A stretch of DNA of 64,000 nucleotides from Pseudomonadota bacterium (GTDB lineage Bacteria > Pseudomonadota > Gammaproteobacteria > Burkholderiales > Thiobacillaceae): assembly GCA_021848725.1 (NCBI GenBank), contig JAJZTS010000006.1, positions 1-64,000 of the forward strand. Reading direction: 5' to 3'. The translations under genes were made by a program, and so were the position numbers. Numbering within the stretch: the stretch's first letter is position 1; the number at the start of each line of letters is the position of its first letter. The notes beneath the pieces are model-generated. The model did not search any database. It was given only the letters and a program-made list of their open reading frames with translations, and had not been told where the DNA came from. Positions 920 through 25,536 of the stretch are shown here, piece after piece.

Positions 920-1068
920 GAGATTTTTTGAAAATGAATAAGCGCGCATAGAAATGAAAGAGAGGGTTGAACTTGGGAAGCTTTTTGTAGGAAATAAATT
1001 TGTTTTGCTTGGGCTAAGATGATTTCTATGTCACCTATATAATCAAAATAGCCTAATAGGAGTGGGCG

Positions 1069-1860
1069 GTGACAACATATGTAATCTACTTATCTAGGCT
1101 TGTTTCTATCGCTTCGTTGATATTAGCGAGTGCTTTCGCTGCAGCAGGTAATATTTTCTTTGGCACCTCCGGCGGCGGCTTTGGCGCCGTCGGCAGTTTC
1201 AGCATCACCGGCAGCGCGACCGGCTCGCCGGACAAGCTGACGCTCAAGGCCAAGGTGCAGGTGGCTCCAGAAGATATTGGCAAGCAGGGTGCGATCTACG
1301 TCATTGCTGCGATGCCGGGCATGGTCTTTTTCCGGCAGCCCGACGGTGCTTGGGGCTATTGGGTCGCTGGCGTCTTCCCGGCCAACTTCCAAGGGACGCT
1401 GGGCAGCCATGACATCAACGTCGTTGAAAACTTCAATTTGAGCCTGTTGCCTGGGCTCGATTTCTATGTCGGTTATGGGACAAACCAGGCCGATATGCTG
1501 CTCAATCAAAAATACAGCAAGCTGTCTACGAATACCCAGCCGATTGTCTTGGATGGCGTTTGGGGAATGGTGTCGAGCACCGGCACCTTTTTCGACCTAC
1601 CGCCGCAATACATGGCGTTCGATGGGACCGATACGATGGCGGTCGTGAACAACAATGGCTGCGCGTTCGCGGCAAACTATGTCGCCAGCGGTAATGTCTT
1701 GTCGGTCACGGTTTTGTACAACAATGACAGCACGGCTTGCGGGCCGGACGATGCGCCCGGGGCGATGCATCGATTCGAATTCGCGCTCGGCCAGACCAAT
1801 CTGAGCCTGAAGGCCGGCGATGGCTCCACGGCCTTGTTTCAGAAGATTGTCATTCCATGA
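1069..1860 (+). CDS. Exported protein, unknown, with a META-like C-terminal region
   Basis: A 263-residue protein starting at GTG behind an AGGAG site. Residues 1-26 form a signal peptide (hydrophobic stretch ending AFAAAG). Residues ~45-160 resemble a repeat domain seen in many proteobacterial surface proteins, with a GKQGAIYVIA strand, an aromatic WGYW stretch and a closing FYVGYGTNQADML motif. Residues ~165-263 look like a META/HslJ-type fold: a single GVWGM strand, then a GCAFAANY segment and a second Cys. The family assignment is inference from motif shape. It sits directly before pilU but about 100 bases away, so a shared function is uncertain. Confidence 0.6.
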   Translation: MTTYVIYLSRLVSIASLILASAFAAAGNIFFGTSGGGFGAVGSFSITGSATGSPDKLTLKAKVQVAPEDIGKQGAIYVIAAMPGMVFFRQPDGAWGYWVAGVFPANFQGTLGSHDINVVENFNLSLLPGLDFYVGYGTNQADMLLNQKYSKLSTNTQPIVLDGVWGMVSSTGTFFDLPPQYMAFDGTDTMAVVNNNGCAFAANYVASGNVLSVTVLYNNDSTACGPDDAPGAMHRFEFALGQTNLSLKAGDGSTALFQKIVIP

Positions 1861-1962
1861 TCGGCGCCTTCCTGATGCAAGGGCCTGGGTGGACAAGGCC
1901 GGCTTGGCTGGCGTATTTTTCAGAGCACGGGCGCCATCGGCGCGAGCAAGCATGAGGGCGTG

Positions 1963-3093
1963 ATGAAGACCGATAGCCAGTATTTCAAATTCGTCTCCGG
2001 CCTGTTGAAGCTGATGGTGGACAAGGGCGGCTCCGACTTGTTCGTCACCGTCGGCGCACCGCCGTCGATCAAGCTGCATGGCGAGATGACGCCGGTGAAC
2101 AACACGCCGGTCACCCGCGAGCAGGCCGAGGAACTGGTTGCCTCGGTGATGAACGACAAGCAGCGCCAGGAATTCCAGGAAACGCACGAATGCAACTGGG
2201 CGATCAGCCTGGAGGGCATCGGCCGGTTCCGGATGAACGCCTATGTCCAGCGCGGCATGCCGGGCATGGTCTGCCGCACCATCAACACCACGATCCCGAG
2301 CTTCGACAGCCTGGGCCTGCCGCCGGTGCTGAAGGACGTGATGATGGAAAAGCGCGGCCTGGTCTTGATGGTGGGCGGCACCGGCTCGGGCAAGTCGACC
2401 AGCCTGGCGGCGATGCTCGACCACCGCAACATCAACTCCAAGGGCCACATCATCTCGGTCGAGGACCCGATCGAATTCGTTCACCCGCACAAGGGTTGCC
2501 TGGTCATGCAGCGCGAGGTCGGGGTCGATACCGAGAGCTGGTTCGCCGCGCTGAAGAACACCCTGCGCCAGGCGCCGGACGTGATCCTGATCGGCGAGAT
2601 CCGCGACCGCGACACCATGGACTATGCGATCGCCTTCGCCGAAACCGGTCACCTGTGCCTGGCCACCCTGCACGCCAACAACTCGAACCAAGCGCTCGAC
2701 CGGATCATCAACTTCTTCCCGCCCGACCGGCGCGACCAGTTGCTGATGGACCTGTCGCTCAACCTCAAGGCCTTGGTCTCGCAGCGGCTGATCCCGAAGA
2801 AGGGCGGCGGCCGGGTGCCGGCGGTGGAGATCTTGATCAACTCGCCCTTGATCTCCGACCTGATCCTCAAGGGCGAGGTGCACGACATCAAGCCGATCAT
2901 GGCCAAGTCGCGCGACCACGGCATGCAGACCTTCGACCAGGCCCTGTTCGACCTGGCCATGGCCGGCCAGATCGAGCGCGAGACCGCATTGCGCTATGCC
3001 GATTCGTACAACGAGCTGCGCCTGATGTTCAAGCTGCACGGCGGTGGCGACGGCGACGAGGACGACAAGACCAAAGATCTGTCCATCGTTTAA
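1963..3093 (+). CDS. pilU: Type IV pilus retraction ATPase PilU
   Basis: A 376-residue PilT/PilU-family hexameric ATPase that helps power pilus retraction and twitching. Visible motifs are the Walker A GGTGSGKST at ~132-140, the Asp box region ISVEDPIEF, a Walker B stretch VILIGEIRD, and the His box ATLHANNSNQALDRI. PilU rather than PilT is indicated by the length, the acidic DGDEDD tail and the absence of the PilT C-terminal AIRNLIRE motif. A GTG at 1960 is possible, but the GAGGG ribosome site fits the ATG at 1963 better. pilT is not adjacent, unlike in many relatives. Confidence 0.92.
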   Translation: MKTDSQYFKFVSGLLKLMVDKGGSDLFVTVGAPPSIKLHGEMTPVNNTPVTREQAEELVASVMNDKQRQEFQETHECNWAISLEGIGRFRMNAYVQRGMPGMVCRTINTTIPSFDSLGLPPVLKDVMMEKRGLVLMVGGTGSGKSTSLAAMLDHRNINSKGHIISVEDPIEFVHPHKGCLVMQREVGVDTESWFAALKNTLRQAPDVILIGEIRDRDTMDYAIAFAETGHLCLATLHANNSNQALDRIINFFPPDRRDQLLMDLSLNLKALVSQRLIPKKGGGRVPAVEILINSPLISDLILKGEVHDIKPIMAKSRDHGMQTFDQALFDLAMAGQIERETALRYADSYNELRLMFKLHGGGDGDEDDKTKDLSIV

Positions 3094-3185
3094 GCGGATA
3101 ACCCTGGGCGGGCTGAGGTTGACCCCTTCCAGGCCGGCGCGCAGAATAGCCGGCCCCATACCCCGCCTATCACGGAGATTGCAAA

Positions 3186-3467
3186 GTGGACGAGGCTGAA
3201 CTGACCAAAGAGCAGCAGATTTTGCGCGCGATGCGCAAGACGCTGGGCTCCATCGTGAAGGATACGGCGCCGCGCGACGGCATGGACAGCCCCCTGTCCT
3301 CGGCGACGGTGGAGAACATCCGCATGTGTTTTAGCTTGATCGCGGCGCGCGAGGCCGAATTGGCCGAGGCCCTCGGCTTGTCGCGCAATGAGCGGCCGTT
3401 CTATTCCGACGAGGAGCAGGACGCCAAGGTGCTGCAATTCGCACCAACCGGCAACAAACCGAACTGA
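3186..3467 (+). CDS. Conserved small protein of unknown function
   Basis: A 93-residue soluble, helical, acidic protein starting at GTG behind a GGAG site. It opens with an ELTKEQQILRAMRKTL helix and carries a central AREAELAEALGLS helix. I have seen similar short proteins in betaproteobacteria, sometimes labelled as segregation-related, but I see no motif that would prove it. The stop codon overlaps the start of the next gene (ATGA-type), so the two are translationally coupled and probably act together. Confidence 0.6.
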   Translation: MDEAELTKEQQILRAMRKTLGSIVKDTAPRDGMDSPLSSATVENIRMCFSLIAAREAELAEALGLSRNERPFYSDEEQDAKVLQFAPTGNKPN

Positions 3468-3721
3468 TGGCCGAGTCCATCGCCAGCTTGGTATCGGATG
3501 CCGCTGGTCAGGTGGTCAAGACCAATTATGTCGTAATCTATGCCCCCCAAGTGCGTAACCGTAAGCGCTTTCCGGAAGGCGTGGTGACCGTATATGAATC
3601 GGAGGCCGCCGCCCTGGCGGCCGCCAAGCCCGAGGCGGGCTACCATGCGGCCATCGCCTCCGGCCCTTCCCGCTCTTCCGAAGGGTTCCGCCTGTTTTAT
3701 CTCGTACGTTGGCTCAACTGA
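3467..3721 (+). CDS. Conserved small protein of unknown function, coupled to the upstream gene
   Basis: An 84-residue protein whose ATG shares one base with the preceding stop. It has a mixed strand/helix pattern: a YVVIYAPQVR strand, a VVTVYESEAAALAA segment and an aromatic end FRLFYLVRWLN. There is no signal peptide, membrane segment or cysteine. It appears to be a conserved companion of the upstream 93-residue protein; function unknown. Confidence 0.55.
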   Translation: MAESIASLVSDAAGQVVKTNYVVIYAPQVRNRKRFPEGVVTVYESEAAALAAAKPEAGYHAAIASGPSRSSEGFRLFYLVRWLN

Positions 3722-5860: not shown

Positions 5861-6478
5861 CTAGCGTCGGCGGAAACGGTAGTAGAGAAAGGGCTGGCGG
5901 GTACCGCTCGGGGTCAGGTGCTGTTCGGCGCTGGTTTCGATCAGCCGGAATTTTGCGCCCAGGGTCTCGGCCAGCGCTTCGGCGCTGTAGCGCACCACCG
6001 GCAGGTTACTGCAGCGGTCGGGGCCGTCGGGCGCGAAGGCGGCGAGGATGGCTTGGCCTTGCGGGGCGAGATAGCGGTCGAGCTGGTTGACATAGGCGGC
6101 CCGGTCGGCCGCCTCGGTGAGGAAATGGAATACGGCACGGTCGTGCCAGATGTCCACCTCATGCGTCAGCGTGAAATCGGTGGCATCGGCCTCGACCCAT
6201 TCGATCTTGCCGGCTTGCGGGCCGAGCCGGGCCTGAACGTATTTCAGGGCCGGGGCGGAGATGTCGAGTACGCTGAGCTGGCGATAGCCGCGCTCGAGCA
6301 AGGCATCGACCAGGCGGGAAGCACCGCCGCCGACATCGAGGATGCGGGCGTCGAGCCCCAGGCCGGTTGCCTCGATCAGCGCAAGGGAGCGTTCGGGGAT
6401 GGCCTGATACCAGCCGACCTCCTCGGGCCGCCTATCGTGGTAAACCTTGTCCCAGTGTGCCTTGCGTGCGGGTTCCAT
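5861..6478 (-). CDS. Class I SAM-dependent methyltransferase
   Basis: A 205-residue Rossmann-fold methyltransferase. The SAM-binding motif I is [16 protein letters not shown] (~46-61), motif II is [11 protein letters not shown], and a [10 protein letters not shown] motif follows near residue 112. This set is typical of the small DUF-style methyltransferases with a WHDR signature found next to unrelated genes. The substrate is unknown. It follows nadA by 6 bases on the same strand and is probably cotranscribed with it. Confidence 0.8.
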
Positions 6479-6484
6479 GCCGAA

Positions 6485-7561
6485 TCAGTCGCCGCTCTTG
6501 CCGCGGATATTGATACCGGCTTGGCCGGCGAATTCCAGCATGCGGTTGATCGAACGCACCGCCTTGGCGCCGATCTCGGCCGGCACCTGGATCTCGTTGT
6601 GGCCGGTGGTCAGCGTTTGTTCCAGCCGGCTCAGCCAGTTCATCGCCATCCACGGGCAATGGGCGCAGGAGATGCAGGTGGCGCCGCGGCCGCCGCTGGG
6701 CGCTTCCAAGAGCCGCTTGCCGGGCGCCACTTCGTGCATCTTGTGGAAGATGCCGATGTCGGTGGCGACGATGAAGCTGGGGTTGGGCAACTGCTGCACC
6801 GCGCGGATCAGTTGGGTGGTCGAGCCGACCACGTCGGCCAGCGCGATCACCTCGGCCGGCGATTCCGGATGGACCAGGATGGCGGCCTCGGGGTGCTGGG
6901 CCTTGAGTTCGCGGATGCCGTCGGCCTTGAACTTCTCGTGCACCACGCAAGAGCCCTGCCACAAGACCATGTCGGCGCCGGTGGTCTTCTGCACGTAGTC
7001 GCCGAGATAACGGTCGGGCGCCCAGATGATCTTCTCGCCGCGGTCCTTCAAGTGTTGCACTACCGGCACTGCGATGCTGGAGGTCACCATCCAGTCGGCC
7101 CGGGCCTTCACCGCGGCCGAGGTGTTGGCGTAGACCACCACGGTGCGGTCCGGGTGCCGGTCGCAGAAGGCGGCGAATTCGTCGGCCGGGCAGGACAGGT
7201 CGAGCGAGCACTCGGCGCGCAGGTCTGGCATCAGCACCCGCTTTTCTGGGTTCAGGATCTTGGCCGTCTCGCCCATGAAACGCACACCGGCGACGATGAT
7301 GGTCTTGGCCTTGGCGGCGTGGCCGAAGCGGGCCATCTCCAGCGAGTCGGAGACACAACCACCGGTCTCGATCGCCAGGTCCTGCACTTCGCCGGCGGTG
7401 TAGTAGTGCGCGACCAGCACCGCGTCCTGTTCCCGCATCAGTTGTTTGATGCGGTCCTTCAGCGCGTCGCGTTGCTCGGGTGTGAGCTGTTCCTCGTCGA
7501 TCGGCGGGACATCGGTGACGGCGCGCGCGGGCGGCGGAACGAGGGTTTGGCTGGGAGTCAT
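6485..7561 (-). CDS. nadA: Quinolinate synthase NadA
   Basis: A 358-residue [4Fe-4S] enzyme that condenses iminoaspartate and dihydroxyacetone phosphate to quinolinate in NAD synthesis. Three internally similar segments are visible, with [16 protein letters not shown] at ~48-63. The likely cluster ligands are C118, C205 and C302 (in [10 protein letters not shown]), which match the spacing of C113, C200 and C297 in E. coli. nadB and nadC are not nearby. Confidence 0.95.
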
Positions 7562-10268: not shown

Positions 10269-10859
10269 ATGGCGCTCTACCGGAATCCTAAAGCTTGGTT
10301 GTTCCTGCTGTGCTTGTATCCCCTGGTCCGGCTGGCTGCGCTGGCATGGACGGGTGGGCTTGGCGCGAACCCGATCGAATTTATTACCCGTTCGCTCGGT
10401 ACGTGGACACTGACCGGCTTGCTGATCACGCTCGCGGTGACGCCGGTTCGCAGGTTGAGCGGCTATGGTGGGGTGCTGCGCTATCGACGTATGCTCGGGC
10501 TGTTTGCCTTCGTCTACGGTATGCTGCATCTGCTGTCATATCTCTGGCTCGACCAGTTCTTCGATTGGCCAGGTATCTTTAAAGATATCCTAAAACGCCC
10601 CTTCATTACTTTCGGCATGGCCGCTTTTATCTTGCTGGTGCCCTTGGCCTTGACCTCGCCCCATGCCGCTATGCGCCGGTTAGGGCGTAATTGGCAACGC
10701 GTGCATTGGTTGATCTACCCAGCCGCGATCGGCGCAGTGTTGCACTATGGTTGGCTGGTGAAGAAGGATCTGACTCAGCCGCTGATCTATGCCGGCATTC
10801 TGGCGCTGCTGCTCGGCACGCGAATTTTTTGGCGCTACAAAAAGACAAAGGCGGGATAA
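10269..10859 (+). CDS. msrQ: Heme-binding membrane subunit MsrQ
   Basis: A 196-residue inner-membrane b-type cytochrome (YedZ) that passes electrons from the quinone or flavin pool to MsrP. Six membrane segments are visible. Conserved His residues occur in the YGMLHLLSYLW segment, in RVHWLIYP and in VLHYGWLV, the expected heme ligands. A GTG at 10263 in the same frame is an alternative start. The stop codon lies in the loop of a strong hairpin. Confidence 0.93.
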   Translation: MALYRNPKAWLFLLCLYPLVRLAALAWTGGLGANPIEFITRSLGTWTLTGLLITLAVTPVRRLSGYGGVLRYRRMLGLFAFVYGMLHLLSYLWLDQFFDWPGIFKDILKRPFITFGMAAFILLVPLALTSPHAAMRRLGRNWQRVHWLIYPAAIGAVLHYGWLVKKDLTQPLIYAGILALLLGTRIFWRYKKTKAG

Positions 10860-10874
10860 ACCCGCCTTTGTCTT
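10841..10874. terminator. Strong shared terminator of msrQ and the H1-like gene
   Basis: A perfect 14-base stem (AAGACAAAGGCGGG and its complement) with an ATAAA loop. On the minus strand it is followed by TTTTTG, so it terminates the H1-like gene well; for msrQ the stem is equally strong but no T tract follows. The msrQ stop codon is inside the loop. Confidence 0.8.
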
Positions 10875-10891
10875 GGGTAACAGCCTGGCTG

Positions 10892-11494
10892 TTACTTCTT
10901 TTTGGCTGCCGGCTTGCGAGCTACCGGCTTACGAGCCACCGGCTTCTTCGCGGCGGTCGTCTTACGAGCCACCGGCTTTTTGGCGGCGGTCGTCTTACGG
11001 GCTACCGGCTTCTTCGCGGCGGTCGTCTTACGAGCCACCGGCTTTTTAGCGGCGGTCGTCTTACGGGCTACCGGCTTTTTAGCGACGGCCTTCTTCGCTG
11101 CGGGTTTCTTGGCGGCTACTTTCTTGGCCACCGGTTTTTTAGCGACGGTTTTCTTCGCTGCGGGTTTCTTGGCTACCGCTTTTTTGGCGGCGGGTTTTTT
11201 CGCGGCCGGTTTTTTAGCGACGGTTTTCTTCGCTGCGGGCTTCTTGGCTACCGCTTTTTTGGCGGCGGGTTTTTTCGCGACGGTTTTCTTCGCTGCGGGC
11301 TTCTTGGCTACCGCTTTTTTGGCGGCGGGTTTTTTCGCGGCCGGTTTTTTAGCGACGGTTTTCTTCGCTGCGGGTTTCTTGGCTACCGCTTTTTTGGCGG
11401 CGGGTTTTTTCGCGGCCGGTTTTTTGGCGGCGGTGGCACTGCTGGTGCTGCTCATCGCGGTTTCAATCGCGCTGCTGGTCGTTTCGGCAGTCAT
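10892..11494 (-). CDS. Histone H1-like Lys/Ala/Pro repeat DNA-binding protein
   Basis: A 200-residue, extremely basic protein. After a Ser/Thr-rich head (~24 residues, starting MTAETTSS) the rest is low-complexity repeat. Residues ~25-125 alternate KKPAAKK, KKAVAKK and KKTVAKK units; residues ~135-190 carry four to five copies of [11 protein letters not shown]; the end is KPAAKKK. It has no globular H1 domain. Related tails occur in Bordetella H1-type and Pseudomonas AlgP/PhaF proteins, thought to compact or organise DNA. A GAGGAG site supports the start. The gene is prone to length change because its DNA is tandemly repeated. Confidence 0.85.
10915..11425. repeat. Tandem coding repeats of the H1-like gene
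   Basis: Two blocks of short direct repeats. The block nearer 10915 has a ~48-base period encoding two variants of the [11 protein letters not shown] unit. The block up to 11425 has 15- to 60-base units encoding [10 protein letters not shown]. Near-identity between copies suggests recent duplication or gene conversion. Confidence 0.8.
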
Positions 11495-11651
11495 ATCGGA
11501 CTCCTCTGTGAAGTTAAGATTGCCTGACTCAAATGCCTGTATCCAAGCATTTCCGCGCATTTCCGCGCGATGTGGCAATTCTAGAACTAAAAATTATTTG
11601 CGCAGCAAGTGTTTATGTGCGAAGGGTGCAACTATTTTCCGCAGTGTGTTA

Positions 11652-12896
11652 TCACGGCAACAACACTTCGTGCGCGAACAATTCTGCAATCGTTTCGCGT
11701 CGACGAATGAGATGCATGCGATCGCCGTCCACCATGACTTCAGCAGCGCGCGCACGCGTGTTGTAGTTGGAACTCATGCTCATGCCATAGGCGCCTGCAG
11801 ACTGGATTGCGAGCAGATCGCCTTCGTCGATAACCAACTCACGATCGTGTCCGAGGAAGTCGCCACTCTCGCAAACCGGGCCGACGATTTCGTAGCGATG
11901 CGTTGAGCCCTGTTTGCTTGTAACCGGCGCGATGTCGTGCCACGCCTCGTAGAGCGCGGGGCGCATCAGGTCGTTCATCGCCGCATCGACGATGGCGAAA
12001 TCCTTGCCTTCGCCATGCTTGAGGTACTCGACCCGCGTCAACAGCAGGCCGGCATTGCCGACCAGCGAGCGGCCGGGCTCGATGATCAGTTTTTGCGGTC
12101 GTCCCTTCAGTTTGCCGAGCAAGGTTTGGGCGTAGTCGACGACGGCGGGCGGCGATTCATCTTGGTAGCGGATGCCGACGCCGCCACCCATGTCGATGTG
12201 TTTTAGCTCGATGCCGTCGGCGGCCAGGGCATCGACCAATTGCAGCACCTTGTCGAGCGCTTCGGCGAAGGGGGCGGTTTCAGTCAATTGCGAGCCGATA
12301 TGGCAATCGATGCCGACCACCTTCAGGTTGGTCATGCCGGCCGCCAAGCGATAGATGCGCAACACTTGGTCGTGGGCAATGCCGAACTTATTGTCTTTGA
12401 GCCCGGTCGAGATATAGGGGTGGGTCTTGGCGTCGACGTTAGGGTTGACCCGCAGGCTGACCGGCGCCACCTTGCCCATTTCGTCGGCGACCCGGTTCAG
12501 GTGATGCAACTCACTTTCGGACTCGACGTTGAAGCAATGGATGCCGGCCTTGAGCGCGGCGCGCATTTCGTCGGCCGATTTGCCTACACCGGAAAACACG
12601 ATCTTGTCCGGGTCGCCGCCGGCCGCCAGCACACGGGCCAGCTCGCCGCCGGAAACGATGTCGAAGCCGGCGCCTAGCCGGGCGAACAGATTCAGAATGG
12701 CCAGATTGGAATTGGCTTTGACCGCATAGCAGATCAAGTGCTCGCGTTCGGCCAGGGCCTGGTCGTATTGGCGGTAGGTCGAGTCCAGGGCGGCGCGGGA
12801 ATAGACATAGGCCGGGGTGCCATGGTTGCGGGCGATTTCATCCAGGGCCACGTCCTCGAAAAAGAGGCGGCCATCGCGTCGAGTCAGCAAATTCAT
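11652..12896 (-). CDS. lysA: Diaminopimelate decarboxylase LysA
   Basis: A 414-residue PLP enzyme catalysing the last step of lysine synthesis, meso-diaminopimelate to lysine. The PLP Lys is K60 in ICYAVKANSN; the glycine-rich phosphate site is DMGGGVGIRY; the EPGRSLVGNAG segment and the partner-subunit Cys motif PVCESGDFLG are all present. The start overlaps the stop of lptM, so the two are coupled. Confidence 0.96.
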   Translation of the reverse strand: MNLLTRRDGRLFFEDVALDEIARNHGTPAYVYSRAALDSTYRQYDQALAEREHLICYAVKANSNLAILNLFARLGAGFDIVSGGELARVLAAGGDPDKIVFSGVGKSADEMRAALKAGIHCFNVESESELHHLNRVADEMGKVAPVSLRVNPNVDAKTHPYISTGLKDNKFGIAHDQVLRIYRLAAGMTNLKVVGIDCHIGSQLTETAPFAEALDKVLQLVDALAADGIELKHIDMGGGVGIRYQDESPPAVVDYAQTLLGKLKGRPQKLIIEPGRSLVGNAGLLLTRVEYLKHGEGKDFAIVDAAMNDLMRPALYEAWHDIAPVTSKQGSTHRYEIVGPVCESGDFLGHDRELVIDEGDLLAIQSAGAYGMSMSSNYNTRARAAEVMVDGDRMHLIRRRETIAELFAHEVLLP

Positions 12897-15422: not shown

Positions 15423-16349
15423 ATGCCGACCCGTATCATCATCGCCACTCGTGAAAGCCAGCTTGCCCTGTGGCAGGCCGAACATATCCGCGCCTGCCTG
15501 CGTGCGCGCTACCCCGATCTGCAAGTGGAGCTGCTTGGCATGACCACCCAGGGCGACCAGATTTTGGATTCGCCTTTGTCGCGCATCGGCGGCAAGGGGC
15601 TGTTCGTCAAGGAGCTGGAGCAGGCCATGGCCGAGGGGCGCGCCGACCTGGCGGTGCACTCGATGAAGGATGTGCCGATGGTGCTGCCCGAGGGCTTCGC
15701 GCTGACTGCGATCACCGAGCGGGAAGACCCGCGCGACGCCTTGATTTCCAACCATTATAAAAACTTGGCCGAGCTGCCGGCCGGGGCGGTGGTCGGCACC
15801 TCCAGCCTGCGCCGCCAGGCCCAGATTCGCGCCCGTTTCCCGCAGTTGAAAATCGAGACCCTGCGTGGCAACGTCAACACCCGGCTGCGCAAGTTGGACG
15901 AGGGCCAGTACGACGCGATCGTGCTCGCCGCGGCCGGTTTGAAGCGGCTGGAACTGGGCCATCGCATCAGCGGCCTGCTGGCGCCGGAAGACAGCCTGCC
16001 TGCGGTTGGGCAGGGCGCCCTGGGTATTGAGATTCGTAGCGACCGCGCCGATCTGGCGCACTTGCTGGCGCCGCTGAACGATGCGAATACCGCGGCCTGT
16101 GTGCGCGCCGAGCGCGAGCTGGGCCGTGTGCTGCAAGGTGGCTGCCAAGCGCCGATCGGTGGCTATGCCGAATTGATCGATGGCCGCTTGCGCTTGCGCG
16201 GCTTCGTGTCCGACTTGGATGGAGTGCGCTTCTACCGCGCCGAGGCCAGCGGTGATCTGTCCGACCCGGAAGCGCTGGGCCAACGGGTCGCCGAGTCTTT
16301 GCTCGAGCAAGGTGCCGACAAGGTCATGGCGGAGCTGCTCGGGCACTGA
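15423..16349 (+). CDS. hemC: Hydroxymethylbilane synthase HemC
   Basis: A 308-residue enzyme that polymerises four porphobilinogens. The family start [17 protein letters not shown], the substrate-binding TSSLRRQAQ (~126-134), and the cofactor Cys C241 in [14 protein letters not shown], which holds the dipyrromethane, are all present. The ATG at 15423 was chosen because it precedes the conserved [10 protein letters not shown] start; no strong ribosome site is seen. It heads hemC-hemD-hemX-hemY. Confidence 0.95.
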
Positions 16350-16350
16350 C

Positions 16351-17115
16351 ATGAGCGCGCTCGCCGGTAAGGGCATCTTGGTGACCCGGCCGCGCGAGCA
16401 AGCGGAACCGTTGCTCGCGCGGTTGCAGGCGGTGGGGGCGCGTGCCATTGCTTTTCCGGCCATCGAGATTGCGCCGCCGCTCGATCGTGCGCGGCTTGAT
16501 GGCCTCATCGACCGTTTGGCCGACTTCGATTGGGTTATTTTCATCAGCCCCACCGCCGTTTCCCGCTTCTACGCCGCCTTGGGCGAACGCGCCCTGCCCA
16601 CCGTGCTGCGCATTGCCGCTGTGGGCGAAGCTTCGGCGCGGGCCTTGCAGCGAAGGGGCGTCGACGGGATTGTTTTTCCCGAGGGCAACGCCGATAGCGA
16701 GGCCTTGCTGGCACTGCCGGCCATGCAGGCCGTGCAGGGGCAAAAGATATTGATCGTGCGCGGCGAGGGCGGCCGCGAGGTGCTGGCCGAGACCTTGCGC
16801 GCGCGCAGTGCCCAGGTGGAGTATGCTGAATGCTATCGCCGCCTGCGCCCGGCGGCCGATGGGGGGCCGATATTGGCCGAATTTCGGCGCGGCGGGATCG
16901 ATGCGATCACGGCGACGAGTGGCGAGGGCGTGAGCAATCTGTTTGCGCTGCTAGGCCCCGAGGGCGAAGGTTTTTTGTGTGACACGCCCTGGTTCGTGCC
17001 GCACGTTCGCATCGCCGCGGCGGCCCGCGTGCTGGGCGCGCAACGGGTGGCGGTGAGCGCGCCCGGGGATGAGGGTTTACTGACAACGCTGGAGGAATGG
17101 TTCGCTCATGGCTAA
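16351..17115 (+). CDS. hemD: Uroporphyrinogen-III synthase HemD
   Basis: A 254-residue two-domain enzyme that cyclises hydroxymethylbilane with inversion of ring D. Early ILVTRPREQAEPLLARL and later SPTAVSRF, LIVRGEGGREVLAETLRARSA and YAECYRR segments match the family. It starts 1 base after the hemC stop and overlaps hemX by 8 bases. Confidence 0.9.
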   Translation: MSALAGKGILVTRPREQAEPLLARLQAVGARAIAFPAIEIAPPLDRARLDGLIDRLADFDWVIFISPTAVSRFYAALGERALPTVLRIAAVGEASARALQRRGVDGIVFPEGNADSEALLALPAMQAVQGQKILIVRGEGGREVLAETLRARSAQVEYAECYRRLRPAADGGPILAEFRRGGIDAITATSGEGVSNLFALLGPEGEGFLCDTPWFVPHVRIAAAARVLGAQRVAVSAPGDEGLLTTLEEWFAHG

Positions 17116-22864: not shown

Positions 22865-23725
22865 ATGCTGCGCATACTCATCATCGGCTGCGGCGACGTC
22901 GGCCTCCGCATCGCTAAACACCTGCAAGGGCGGGCTCGCCTGTATGCCCTGAGCCGTTCGCCCGACGGTCGGGCCGCACTGCGTGCCGCCGGCATCACCC
23001 CGATCGCCGGCGACCTGGACGATCGCAGGAGTCTCAAGCGCATCGCCGGCCTGGCCGACTGGGTGCTGCATCTGGCACCGCCGCCCGGCGAAGGGACAAG
23101 CGACCCACGTACCGCGCGGCTGTTGGCGGCGCTGGGGCGGGGCAGTCTACCACGGGCCCTGACCTACATCAGTACCACCGGGGTTTACGGCGACTGCGCC
23201 GGCGACTTTGTCGCCGAGACGCGTCCCGTCCGGCCGCGCAACGCGCGGGCCAAGCGCCGGGTCGCGGCCGAACGGGCTTTGCGCGCCTGGGGTCTCGGCC
23301 ATGGCGTGCGCGTGAGTATCTTGCGGGCGCCCGGTATCTATGCCGCCGACCGCTTGCCCGCGGAACGCGTGCGCCAAGGCCTGCCCGCCTTGCTGCCGGG
23401 CGAGGACATCTACACCAACCACATCCATGCCGAAGATCTCGCTCGGCTGTGCGTTGTGGCCCTGTTCCGGGGGCGGACCAACCGGCTCTACAACGCGGTC
23501 GACGACAGCGATCACAAGATGGGCGACTGGTTCGATCGGGTGGCCGATCATCTCGGTCTGCCGCGCCCGCCGCGCCTACCGCGGGCCGAGGTCGAGGCGG
23601 CGGTGACCCCGGCCATGCGCAGCTTCCTGGCCGAATCGCGGCGCTTGTCGAATCGGCGCATCAAGGAGGAATTGCGTTTCCTGCTGCGTTACCCGACGGT
23701 AGGCGATGGCTTAAGTCATCGTTAA
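22865..23725 (+). CDS. NAD-dependent epimerase/dehydratase-like protein (YeeZ type)
   Basis: A 286-residue Rossmann-fold protein with ILIIGCGDVGLRIAKHL at 4-20, a YISTTGVYGDCAGDFVAE active-type segment and NAVDDSDHKMGDWFD. It belongs to the short-chain dehydrogenase-like group with SulA/YeeZ homology. Catalytic Tyr-Lys is not obvious, so the activity is unknown. Divergent from the ferredoxin reductase with a 29-base gap. Confidence 0.8.
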   Translation: MLRILIIGCGDVGLRIAKHLQGRARLYALSRSPDGRAALRAAGITPIAGDLDDRRSLKRIAGLADWVLHLAPPPGEGTSDPRTARLLAALGRGSLPRALTYISTTGVYGDCAGDFVAETRPVRPRNARAKRRVAAERALRAWGLGHGVRVSILRAPGIYAADRLPAERVRQGLPALLPGEDIYTNHIHAEDLARLCVVALFRGRTNRLYNAVDDSDHKMGDWFDRVADHLGLPRPPRLPRAEVEAAVTPAMRSFLAESRRLSNRRIKEELRFLLRYPTVGDGLSHR

Positions 23726-23733
23726 GCCTTACG

Positions 23734-24897
23734 ATGCCACGCTGCCGGATTCACACCGATACGATGATGGAAGGCATGAGGCAGACCGAGGGCGGTATCC
23801 AGTTCAGCACGAGCGATGCGCTGGGGCTGGCGCAAGCGCACGATGCATTCCAGGCCTTGCTTGAGGCGCAGGGCCTTGCCCGGCATGTCGAAACAGCGGC
23901 CATGGCCGGTGCCGGCCGGCATGTCATCCGGTTCCATCTGAACGAAGAAACGGCTTCGGCCTGGGCGCCCGATGGCGACACCTTGCGCCTAACCGAAATG
24001 CTTGGGCTCGATAGTCAAACCCACGCAGGCGACCTGGAGAAAGAGATACTGGTCGCCATGCTGCTCGCTCCCGTGGCCTTCGCGTTTCCAAGTTACGATG
24101 AGCTGATTGCCGCGCTGCGCATGCGCCGTTATATCGTCGAGGCGGCATGTAAGACAGAACTGGATTTCCACACCACCGAGGCTGAGCGTCCGGCCGATTG
24201 CTGGGCTTATGTCGAGGATCGGGGCTTTACCGTTTTACCGGGCACGCCGCTGGTCACCGCCTTGCGTAAGGCCACCCAGCCGGCGGTGTCGGGCGCACGC
24301 TATTCGTTTTCCTGCTATCGCGCGACCGAATACGTCATCCTGCTGGGGATCGCGCAGGAGCTAGCCGCCAGCAACCCCGGACTGCTGGCCCGGCTGCAAC
24401 GGCAGTGGGAGTGCGAGCCCATCATGTCGGCCCGGTTTCACGATGTTTTCTTGCGCGAGTACGGCGCCATGGAGGCGCCGTTGCCGATGAAGTATTACGT
24501 GCCCGGCGACCGCCTTTGGTTTCGCAACCCGGACGAGGCCTCGGCGGATGTGGTGGGCTACGAGGGCTCGTGGGTGTTTTATCTCGGCGGCGGCCTGTTC
24601 ACCAATTTTTGGAAATGGGGCGAGCCGTTCACGCTGGCGGCGAAGTGCGTGGAGATCTATCACTGGCGTCATGGCACCTATCGCGACTCGACGGGCGAGC
24701 TGCGAATGGACGAGTCCCGGGTCGAAGCGCATGTCCGCGCTTCGCAGGCCGACCCGGTCGCGCTGGGGCGCATCGTCGAACGCATGCAGCGCTACCGTGA
24801 CCCCAGGGGGGTCTACCGCGATGGCGGCTGCATCGATACCACCCGGGAACACCCGCGCTGGGTCTGTCCCGGCACGGCCGATATCCGGCTGCCCTAG
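23734..24897 (+). CDS. Probable protein-glutamine gamma-glutamyltransferase (Tgl-like)
   Basis: A 387-residue protein. Residues ~118-310 resemble Bacillus Tgl, the spore-coat transglutaminase: YDELIAALRMRRYIVEAA matches the Tgl early helix, YSFSCYRATEYVILLGIA (C194) matches the catalytic-Cys segment, and PGDRLWFRNPDEASADVVGYEGSWVFYLGGG matches the loop that carries the catalytic Glu. The Glu directly before the catalytic Cys in Tgl is Ser here, and the second Glu is shifted (E277). The first ~115 residues and last ~75 are extra. The start is uncertain; 23764 or 23776 are alternatives. Function in crosslinking is inference from motif alignment by eye. Confidence 0.6.
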   Translation: MPRCRIHTDTMMEGMRQTEGGIQFSTSDALGLAQAHDAFQALLEAQGLARHVETAAMAGAGRHVIRFHLNEETASAWAPDGDTLRLTEMLGLDSQTHAGDLEKEILVAMLLAPVAFAFPSYDELIAALRMRRYIVEAACKTELDFHTTEAERPADCWAYVEDRGFTVLPGTPLVTALRKATQPAVSGARYSFSCYRATEYVILLGIAQELAASNPGLLARLQRQWECEPIMSARFHDVFLREYGAMEAPLPMKYYVPGDRLWFRNPDEASADVVGYEGSWVFYLGGGLFTNFWKWGEPFTLAAKCVEIYHWRHGTYRDSTGELRMDESRVEAHVRASQADPVALGRIVERMQRYRDPRGVYRDGGCIDTTREHPRWVCPGTADIRLP

Positions 24898-24975: not shown

Positions 24976-25536
24976 ATGGACAACGCCAACTTTATCGATC
25001 ACTTTCTAATCGCCATGCCGAACATGGTGGACCCCAACTTTGCCGGCGCATTGACCTACGTCTGCGACCATAGCGAGCAGGGTGCCCTGGGCGTGGTGGT
25101 GAACCGGCCTATCGACCTGTCGCTGGAAAAGTTGTTCGAGCAGATCGGCCTGAGCTTGGATGACGAGCGGATCAAGGACAACCCGGTCTATTACGGCGGC
25201 CCGGTGCAGATGGAGCGCGGTTTCGTGCTGCACCGCCCGGTCGGCGAATGGGGCTCCACCTTGTCGGTGCACGATCGGGTCGGCCTGACCACCTCGAAGG
25301 ATATCCTGGAGGCCACGGCGCGCCACGAAGGGCCGGAGCAGATCATCGTCACCCTGGGTTATGCGGGCTGGGCGCCGGGCCAACTGGAGGAAGAGATCAA
25401 GCAGAACGCCTGGCTCACCGTGCCGGCCGACCCGGAAGTCATCTTCGGTCTGCCGCCGGAAGAGCGGCTGTCGGCGGCCATGCATATCCTGGGTATCGAC
25501 ATGTCGATGCTATCGGAAGAGGCCGGGCACGCCTGA
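24976..25536 (+). CDS. algH: YqgE/AlgH family protein (UPF0301)
   Basis: A 186-residue protein with the family start [41 protein letters not shown] and the later [30 protein letters not shown] and [10 protein letters not shown] motifs. The biochemical function is not settled. It heads a long run: its stop overlaps the ruvX start (ATGA), and ruvX in turn overlaps pyrR. Confidence 0.92.

Follow-up and report, generated by a model that had tools for sequence, protein, structure and literature searches.

The question raised by this locus is what a relative of the Bacillus transglutaminase Tgl does in a Gram-negative lineage, and whether the departures from Tgl described in the initial annotation point to a changed chemistry. 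The gene lies in the window (the whole stretch of DNA that was analysed, 64,000 nucleotides in length) and has the following outer features.

23734..24897, plus strand: gene of the Tgl family, encoding 387 aa, with a possible start at 23734, 23764, 23767 or 23776
23791..24015, plus strand: N-terminal part of the protein (residues 20-94), not covered by the TGL match; alpha/beta in the predicted model, pLDDT ~81-97 per ten-residue block
24016..24810, plus strand: TGL domain (PF20085), residues 95-359, by profile match

Translation of the open reading frame (ORF) at 23734-24897 gave 387 residues with no internal stops. The ORF is a real, conserved gene; close relatives in 32 of the 399 genomes of the order, with distant matches in seven more, place it beyond chance. 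A clear ribosome-binding site was found at none of the four ATG candidates, and the conserved stretch of the protein starts at about residue 20. The upstream ORF stops at 23725 and the next one starts at 24976; recognised by eye, these are presumably an NAD-dependent epimerase-like gene and YqgE, respectively. Elsewhere in the window, at 10691-11906, repetitive plus-strand frames were noted by eye that look antisense to a Lys/Ala-rich, histone-H1-like gene on the minus strand, beside a lysA-like gene at 11652-12896.

The 387-aa protein was compared with family profiles and with known structures. Pfam returned a single family, PF20085 (TGL), at an E-value of 2.7e-33 and 115.7 bits (cut-off 23.7) across residues 95-359, leaving residues 1-94 and 360-387 outside the match, in agreement with the extra N- and C-terminal regions unlike Tgl that had been described. 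In NCBIfam (E<=10) the sole return was PRK03187, the Tgl equivalog, at 31.7 bits, far below its cut-off of 307 bits. No NlpC/P60 match was obtained in Pfam at E<=10, and none to the cyanophycinase family (TIGR02069, S51) in the NCBIfam scan at the same threshold. A sequence search of the PDB identified 7c9j at 8e-6, improving to 1e-16 with a profile of 11 sequences, and more weakly 4p8i, both of which are Tgl structures. An AlphaFold model was calculated from an alignment of eight sequences and the best of five models was used (pLDDT 76.1, pTM 0.80; the other four had a pLDDT of 59-63), with residues 359-387 falling below 50. When this model was submitted to Foldseek, the sole matches at E<=0.001 were 4p8i (1.6e-5) and 7c9j (1.4e-4), and VIA-align likewise placed 4p8i (Z 14.7, rmsd 3.5, 219 residues aligned) and 7c9j (Z 13.3, rmsd 3.1, 183 residues aligned) ahead of the NlpC protein 6biq (Z 5.1); non-Tgl families all scored Z <=5.1, which is uninformative either way. 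The Tgl fold rests on the sequence and on one model, since the model of the Polynucleobacter relative was poor, core included (pLDDT 64.8, pTM 0.53). Profile and fold thus both place the protein in the TGL family, and a Tgl relative in a Gram-negative lineage is upheld; by its catalytic residues it is not a Tgl-type transglutaminase. The family assignment itself is ordinary, and the real interest of the gene lies in its tie to an open question of cyanophycin metabolism.

Family members were found in 39 of the 399 genomes of the order (33 of the 345 high-quality genomes; 24 of 158 genera) and fall into two branches, the split between which received full support in the tree. Near members, of at least 47% identity, occur in 32 genomes, including that of the window and one with a fragmentary gene (G154); seven genomes have a distant match only, a fragment in one of them (G358), and three (G047, G182 and G365) have both. 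Near members are without a leader, while those of the distant branch are ~420-440 aa long, and a hydrophobic N-terminal leader was recognised by eye in eight of nine, the ninth sequence being truncated. Between the branches, identity is 25-26% in full-length alignments of three members and 30-38% in local matches, and five distant members tested against TGL scored 50-59 bits. Among 398 genomes drawn from the phylum, PF20085 was present in four, that of the window and others, all of the same order. No relative was found in viral_contigs by tblastn (two stretches fitted the pattern, neither of which was confirmed), in plasmids (E<=0.01) or in phages (E<=0.1), and cargo of a virus, phage or plasmid was rejected on these results. 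In G182 (L062) a near member (6409-7557, minus strand) and a leader-bearing member (15685-17001, plus strand) lie ~8 kb apart, with the cph cluster ~1.2 Mb away.

Conservation of the active site was assessed in an alignment of 46 rows, comprising 37 near rows (the window protein included) and nine distant, leader-bearing rows. The gene fragments of G154 and G358 were left out, both genomes still being counted among the 39 carriers, and L032 was dropped as identical in sequence to L003. The features concerned are as follows.

24310..24312, plus strand: codon of Ser193, at the site of Tgl Glu115; Ser in 37/37 near rows, Gly in 9/9 leader-bearing rows
24313..24315, plus strand: codon of Cys194, the presumed nucleophile, at the site of Tgl Cys116; 46/46; starts the predicted helix 194-213
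24502..24534, plus strand: PGDRLWFRNPD loop, residues 257-267
24562..24564, plus strand: codon of Glu277, the displaced Glu, at the site of Tgl Arg185; 46/46
24568..24570, plus strand: codon of Ser279, at the site of Tgl Glu187; 46/46
24652..24669, plus strand: E307-x-x-H310-W-R312 motif; E307 and W311 46/46, R312 45/46, H310 37/37 in near rows only
24823..24858, plus strand: C-terminal GGCIDxxRExxR tail, residues 364-375; model confidence <50

In B. subtilis Tgl, the numbering of which is taken from PMC6490927, Cys116 is reported to pair with Glu187 or Glu115 and R185 to sit at the tunnel entrance; the C116A, E115A and H200A mutants are inactive and E187A retains ~60% (PMC6490927). The HMMER alignment places C116 opposite C194, E115 opposite S193, E187 opposite S279 and R185 opposite E277, with GYEGSW (275-280) facing QWRGEN of 4p8i. 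The central domain therefore follows the Tgl pattern as originally proposed, in the Cys segment (SFSC, 191-194) as in the PGD-NPD loop, and the two residue changes also hold: the Glu beside the Cys is a Ser, and the second catalytic Glu is displaced, E277 standing two residues upstream of the former Glu position. Invariance over 46 rows confirms this description and indicates that Glu277 is strongly constrained. Thirteen residues in total (C194, Y195, N265, D267, E277, G278, S279, K304, E307, W311, G364, G365 and R371) are identical in every row; within the C-terminal tail, C366, D368 and E372 are invariant in the near family only, and the distant branch lacks both H310 and C366. By ungapped count H200 of Tgl corresponds to F292, a region into which MAFFT inserts a gap, so that its register is uncertain, and a His at positions 291-293 is absent from all 46 rows. 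In a Tgl encoded on a 1.44 Mb megaplasmid of Niallia taxi (L080, 511-1392), a Val was noted by eye at Glu187, with Glu115 and the FGHG His retained, so this position is variable in the Bacillaceae too.

The protein might nevertheless be a true transglutaminase, which would crosslink proteins (granule-associated ones, for example) or couple Lys-containing cyanophycin to Gln, much as Tgl hardens the spore coat. Family and fold are those of Tgl, the Cys is present in all 46 rows, the PGD-NPD loop is retained, and a storage or coat role of the spore type would also explain the co-occurrence with a granule polymer described below. However, the E115A and H200A substitutions abolish Tgl activity (PMC6490927), and here the first site is occupied by Ser and the second, within its uncertain register, offers no His; E187 is replaced as well, and the score against the Tgl equivalog is about a tenth of its cut-off. 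A transglutaminase is accordingly considered unlikely, and the invariant, displaced Glu277 would be compatible with the changed chemistry that had been suggested for this sequence.

The strongest clue to function, which the initial annotation did not contain, is a tie to cyanophycin synthesis, which the Tgl-family gene tracks in this order. Cyanophycin synthetase (TIGR02068) was found above cut-off in 38 of the 39 carriers. Among 40 non-carriers, which were genomes with low-numbered handles and not a random draw, it was above cut-off in nine and reached E<=1e-150 in 11; the sole carrier without cphA at E<=1e-150 was G154. The cyanophycin-associated ABC transporter, above cut-off in 133 of the 399 genomes, was present in 36 of 39 carriers, as against 97 of the 360 remaining genomes (p 7e-16 by Fisher's test, uncorrected for kinship and genome size). 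Three carriers have no transporter above cut-off: G122, in which the contig that also carries the Tgl-family gene ends within the transporter stretch; G287, which is 82% complete; and G154. In this last genome the gene survives as fragments 1-242 and 197-244 on two contigs (C47 and C73), as if decaying.

In Polynucleobacter (L035) the order of genes is cyanophycin synthetase (1027.8 bits), the NF052233 transporter (1376.8 bits), DUF1854 (NF052234, 218.6 bits) and then the Tgl-family gene. The gene adjoins a cph cluster in eight loci, in four arrangements.

L033, L035, L036 and G347: Tgl-family gene after DUF1854, same strand
G267 and G352: Tgl-family gene after DUF1854, opposite strand
G331: Tgl-family gene after cphA, opposite strand
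G122: Tgl-family gene after cphA, same strand

Adjacency was thus observed in five of the 32 near carriers and three of the seven named loci, 27 of the 32 near carriers being non-adjacent, and the adjacent loci are scattered over the gene tree, requiring six changes, of which at least two are forced. In the window genome the gene (contig C70) stands apart from the cph cluster, with cphA matches on C25 and C90 and the transporter on C90. On this last contig, NF052233 is matched in two stretches (1040-2149 and 2248-3471 within 1040-3471), the second only being above cut-off, possibly through a frame break or an assembly fault. Neighbourhood clustering identified no constant operon partner, on crude gene calls in which the cph genes became visible only after NCBIfam naming. 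In a survey of 26 cph loci, 20 without an adjacent Tgl-family gene and six chosen for having one, no other family recurred beside the cluster in more than five loci, again on crude gene calls.

It could be argued that the tie is indirect, the two genes being markers of a shared lineage or lifestyle and the target of the enzyme lying elsewhere, as most carriers have the gene away from the cluster, its presence is patchy and the species are related. Against this, the tie to the transporter persists when counted by genus (22 of 24 carrier genera and 38 of 134 others, p 5e-9) and in both branches (29 of 32 near carriers and seven of seven distant-only genomes), and adjacency to the cph cluster was found in several lineages in four different arrangements; an indirect tie is therefore regarded as improbable, and a part for the 387-aa protein in cyanophycin metabolism as probable. 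Since 97 of the 133 ABC-positive genomes are without a family member the gene is dispensable in general, and, as most cph-positive genomes are without one, its candidacy as an answer is limited to certain lineages.

That answer would concern cyanophycin breakdown. In one survey a recognisable cyanophycinase is reported in 2.8% of beta-proteobacterial genomes with cphA1, a result described by the authors as unanticipated and for which unknown isozymes were proposed (PMC10206079); an earlier paper, in which an alternative pathway is implied, makes the same point with a citation from 2002 (PMC5178258), and a two-cphA/ABC cluster without cphB is described in sludge bacteria (PMC10687191). Breakdown enzymes were compared between the 39 carriers and 40 of the 97 ABC-positive non-carriers. 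Cyanophycinase above cut-off was rare alike in both (2/39 and 4/40, p 0.68), so there is no direct complementarity, and simple replacement of cyanophycinase by the Tgl-family enzyme was rejected. The IaaA type (PF01112) was found in 4/39 carriers and 17/40 non-carriers (p 0.0018), a complementary pattern of which genome size and kinship may be the cause, and IadA at E<=1e-40 in none of the 79 genomes. Cyanophycinase, IaaA and IadA were all missing from 34/39 carriers and 20/40 non-carriers (p 0.0006); this set of three does not extend to the M14-like dipeptide hydrolase that PMC10206079 names. Among the titles and abstract openings of the open-access papers listed, none was found that joins cyanophycin with transglutaminase or gamma-glutamyltransferase.

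Taken together, the best reading is that the 387-aa protein is a cytosolic thiol enzyme of the Tgl fold, an acyltransferase or hydrolase, that serves cyanophycin metabolism, to which we assign a probability of about 0.55. Catalysis through Cys194 is very probable. The proposal that the bond attacked is a side-chain amide is more tentative, at somewhat less than even odds: in the manner of Bacillus Tgl acting on Gln, Cys194 would attack the carbonyl of an amide on the side chain of an acidic residue, and the likely substrate would be the Asp side-chain amide to which Arg (or Lys) is joined, either in beta-Asp-Arg dipeptides or in cyanophycin itself. We infer this bond and substrate because the chemistry of Tgl is directed at side-chain amides of acidic residues and every Asp side chain of cyanophycin is amidated with Arg (PMC10206079). 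The acyl-thioester would then be hydrolysed, freeing Arg, or handed to an amine, and Glu277 would be the best acid/base candidate, as both Tgl Glu sites are occupied by Ser. A point against this role is that R185, the Tgl counterpart of Glu277, sits at a tunnel entrance. A catalytically dead Tgl-fold protein, bound to cyanophycin or to a Cph enzyme as a scaffold or regulator, would fit the replacement throughout of both Tgl Glu residues and probably of the essential His, but is improbable, as a dead enzyme would not usually keep its nucleophile Cys and a nearby Glu unchanged in all 46 rows, across branches about one quarter identical. A bolder form of the thiol-enzyme reading, which we regard as speculative and rather doubtful, is that this is one of the long-sought enzymes with which beta-proteobacteria, lacking cyanophycinase, would mobilise or process the polymer, its rewired Cys-Glu active site on a Tgl fold opening isopeptide bonds of Asp side chains in cyanophycin or its dipeptides, and the leader-bearing sisters doing likewise outside the cytoplasm. 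Beta-proteobacteria often carry cyanophycin synthetase, and a cysteine enzyme that co-occurs with it, and is sometimes adjacent, provides a named gene to test.

Among known systems, the cyanophycinases CphB, CphE and CphI are serine peptidases (S51) of an unrelated family, with a Ser in place of a Cys nucleophile, and would share with the 387-aa protein only a biological role, possibly, if cyanophycin cleavage is indeed its function. NlpC/P60 cysteine peptidases are a weak structural match to the model (6biq, Z 5.1), and the position that we take to be that of the His in their Cys-His pair is a Ser in the 387-aa protein. They are given as the fold class of Tgl (PMC6490927, PMC10318531). The closest solved structures are those of the spore-coat transglutaminase Tgl of Bacillus subtilis and Geobacillus (PF20085; 4p8i, 7c9j), with which the protein has in common the profile, the fold (in one predicted model), the Cys heading a helix, the PGD...NPD loop and the strand after G(E/S). 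It differs from Tgl in having Ser at E115 and E187, Glu at R185 and probably Phe or Asn at H200, and in adding a conserved tail at the C-terminus and, at the N-terminus, a domain of ~75 residues. The setting differs as well, with no sporulation and a cyanophycin context; if the preferred reading is true, this would be a case of the Tgl fold operating outside spores and with other catalytic residues.
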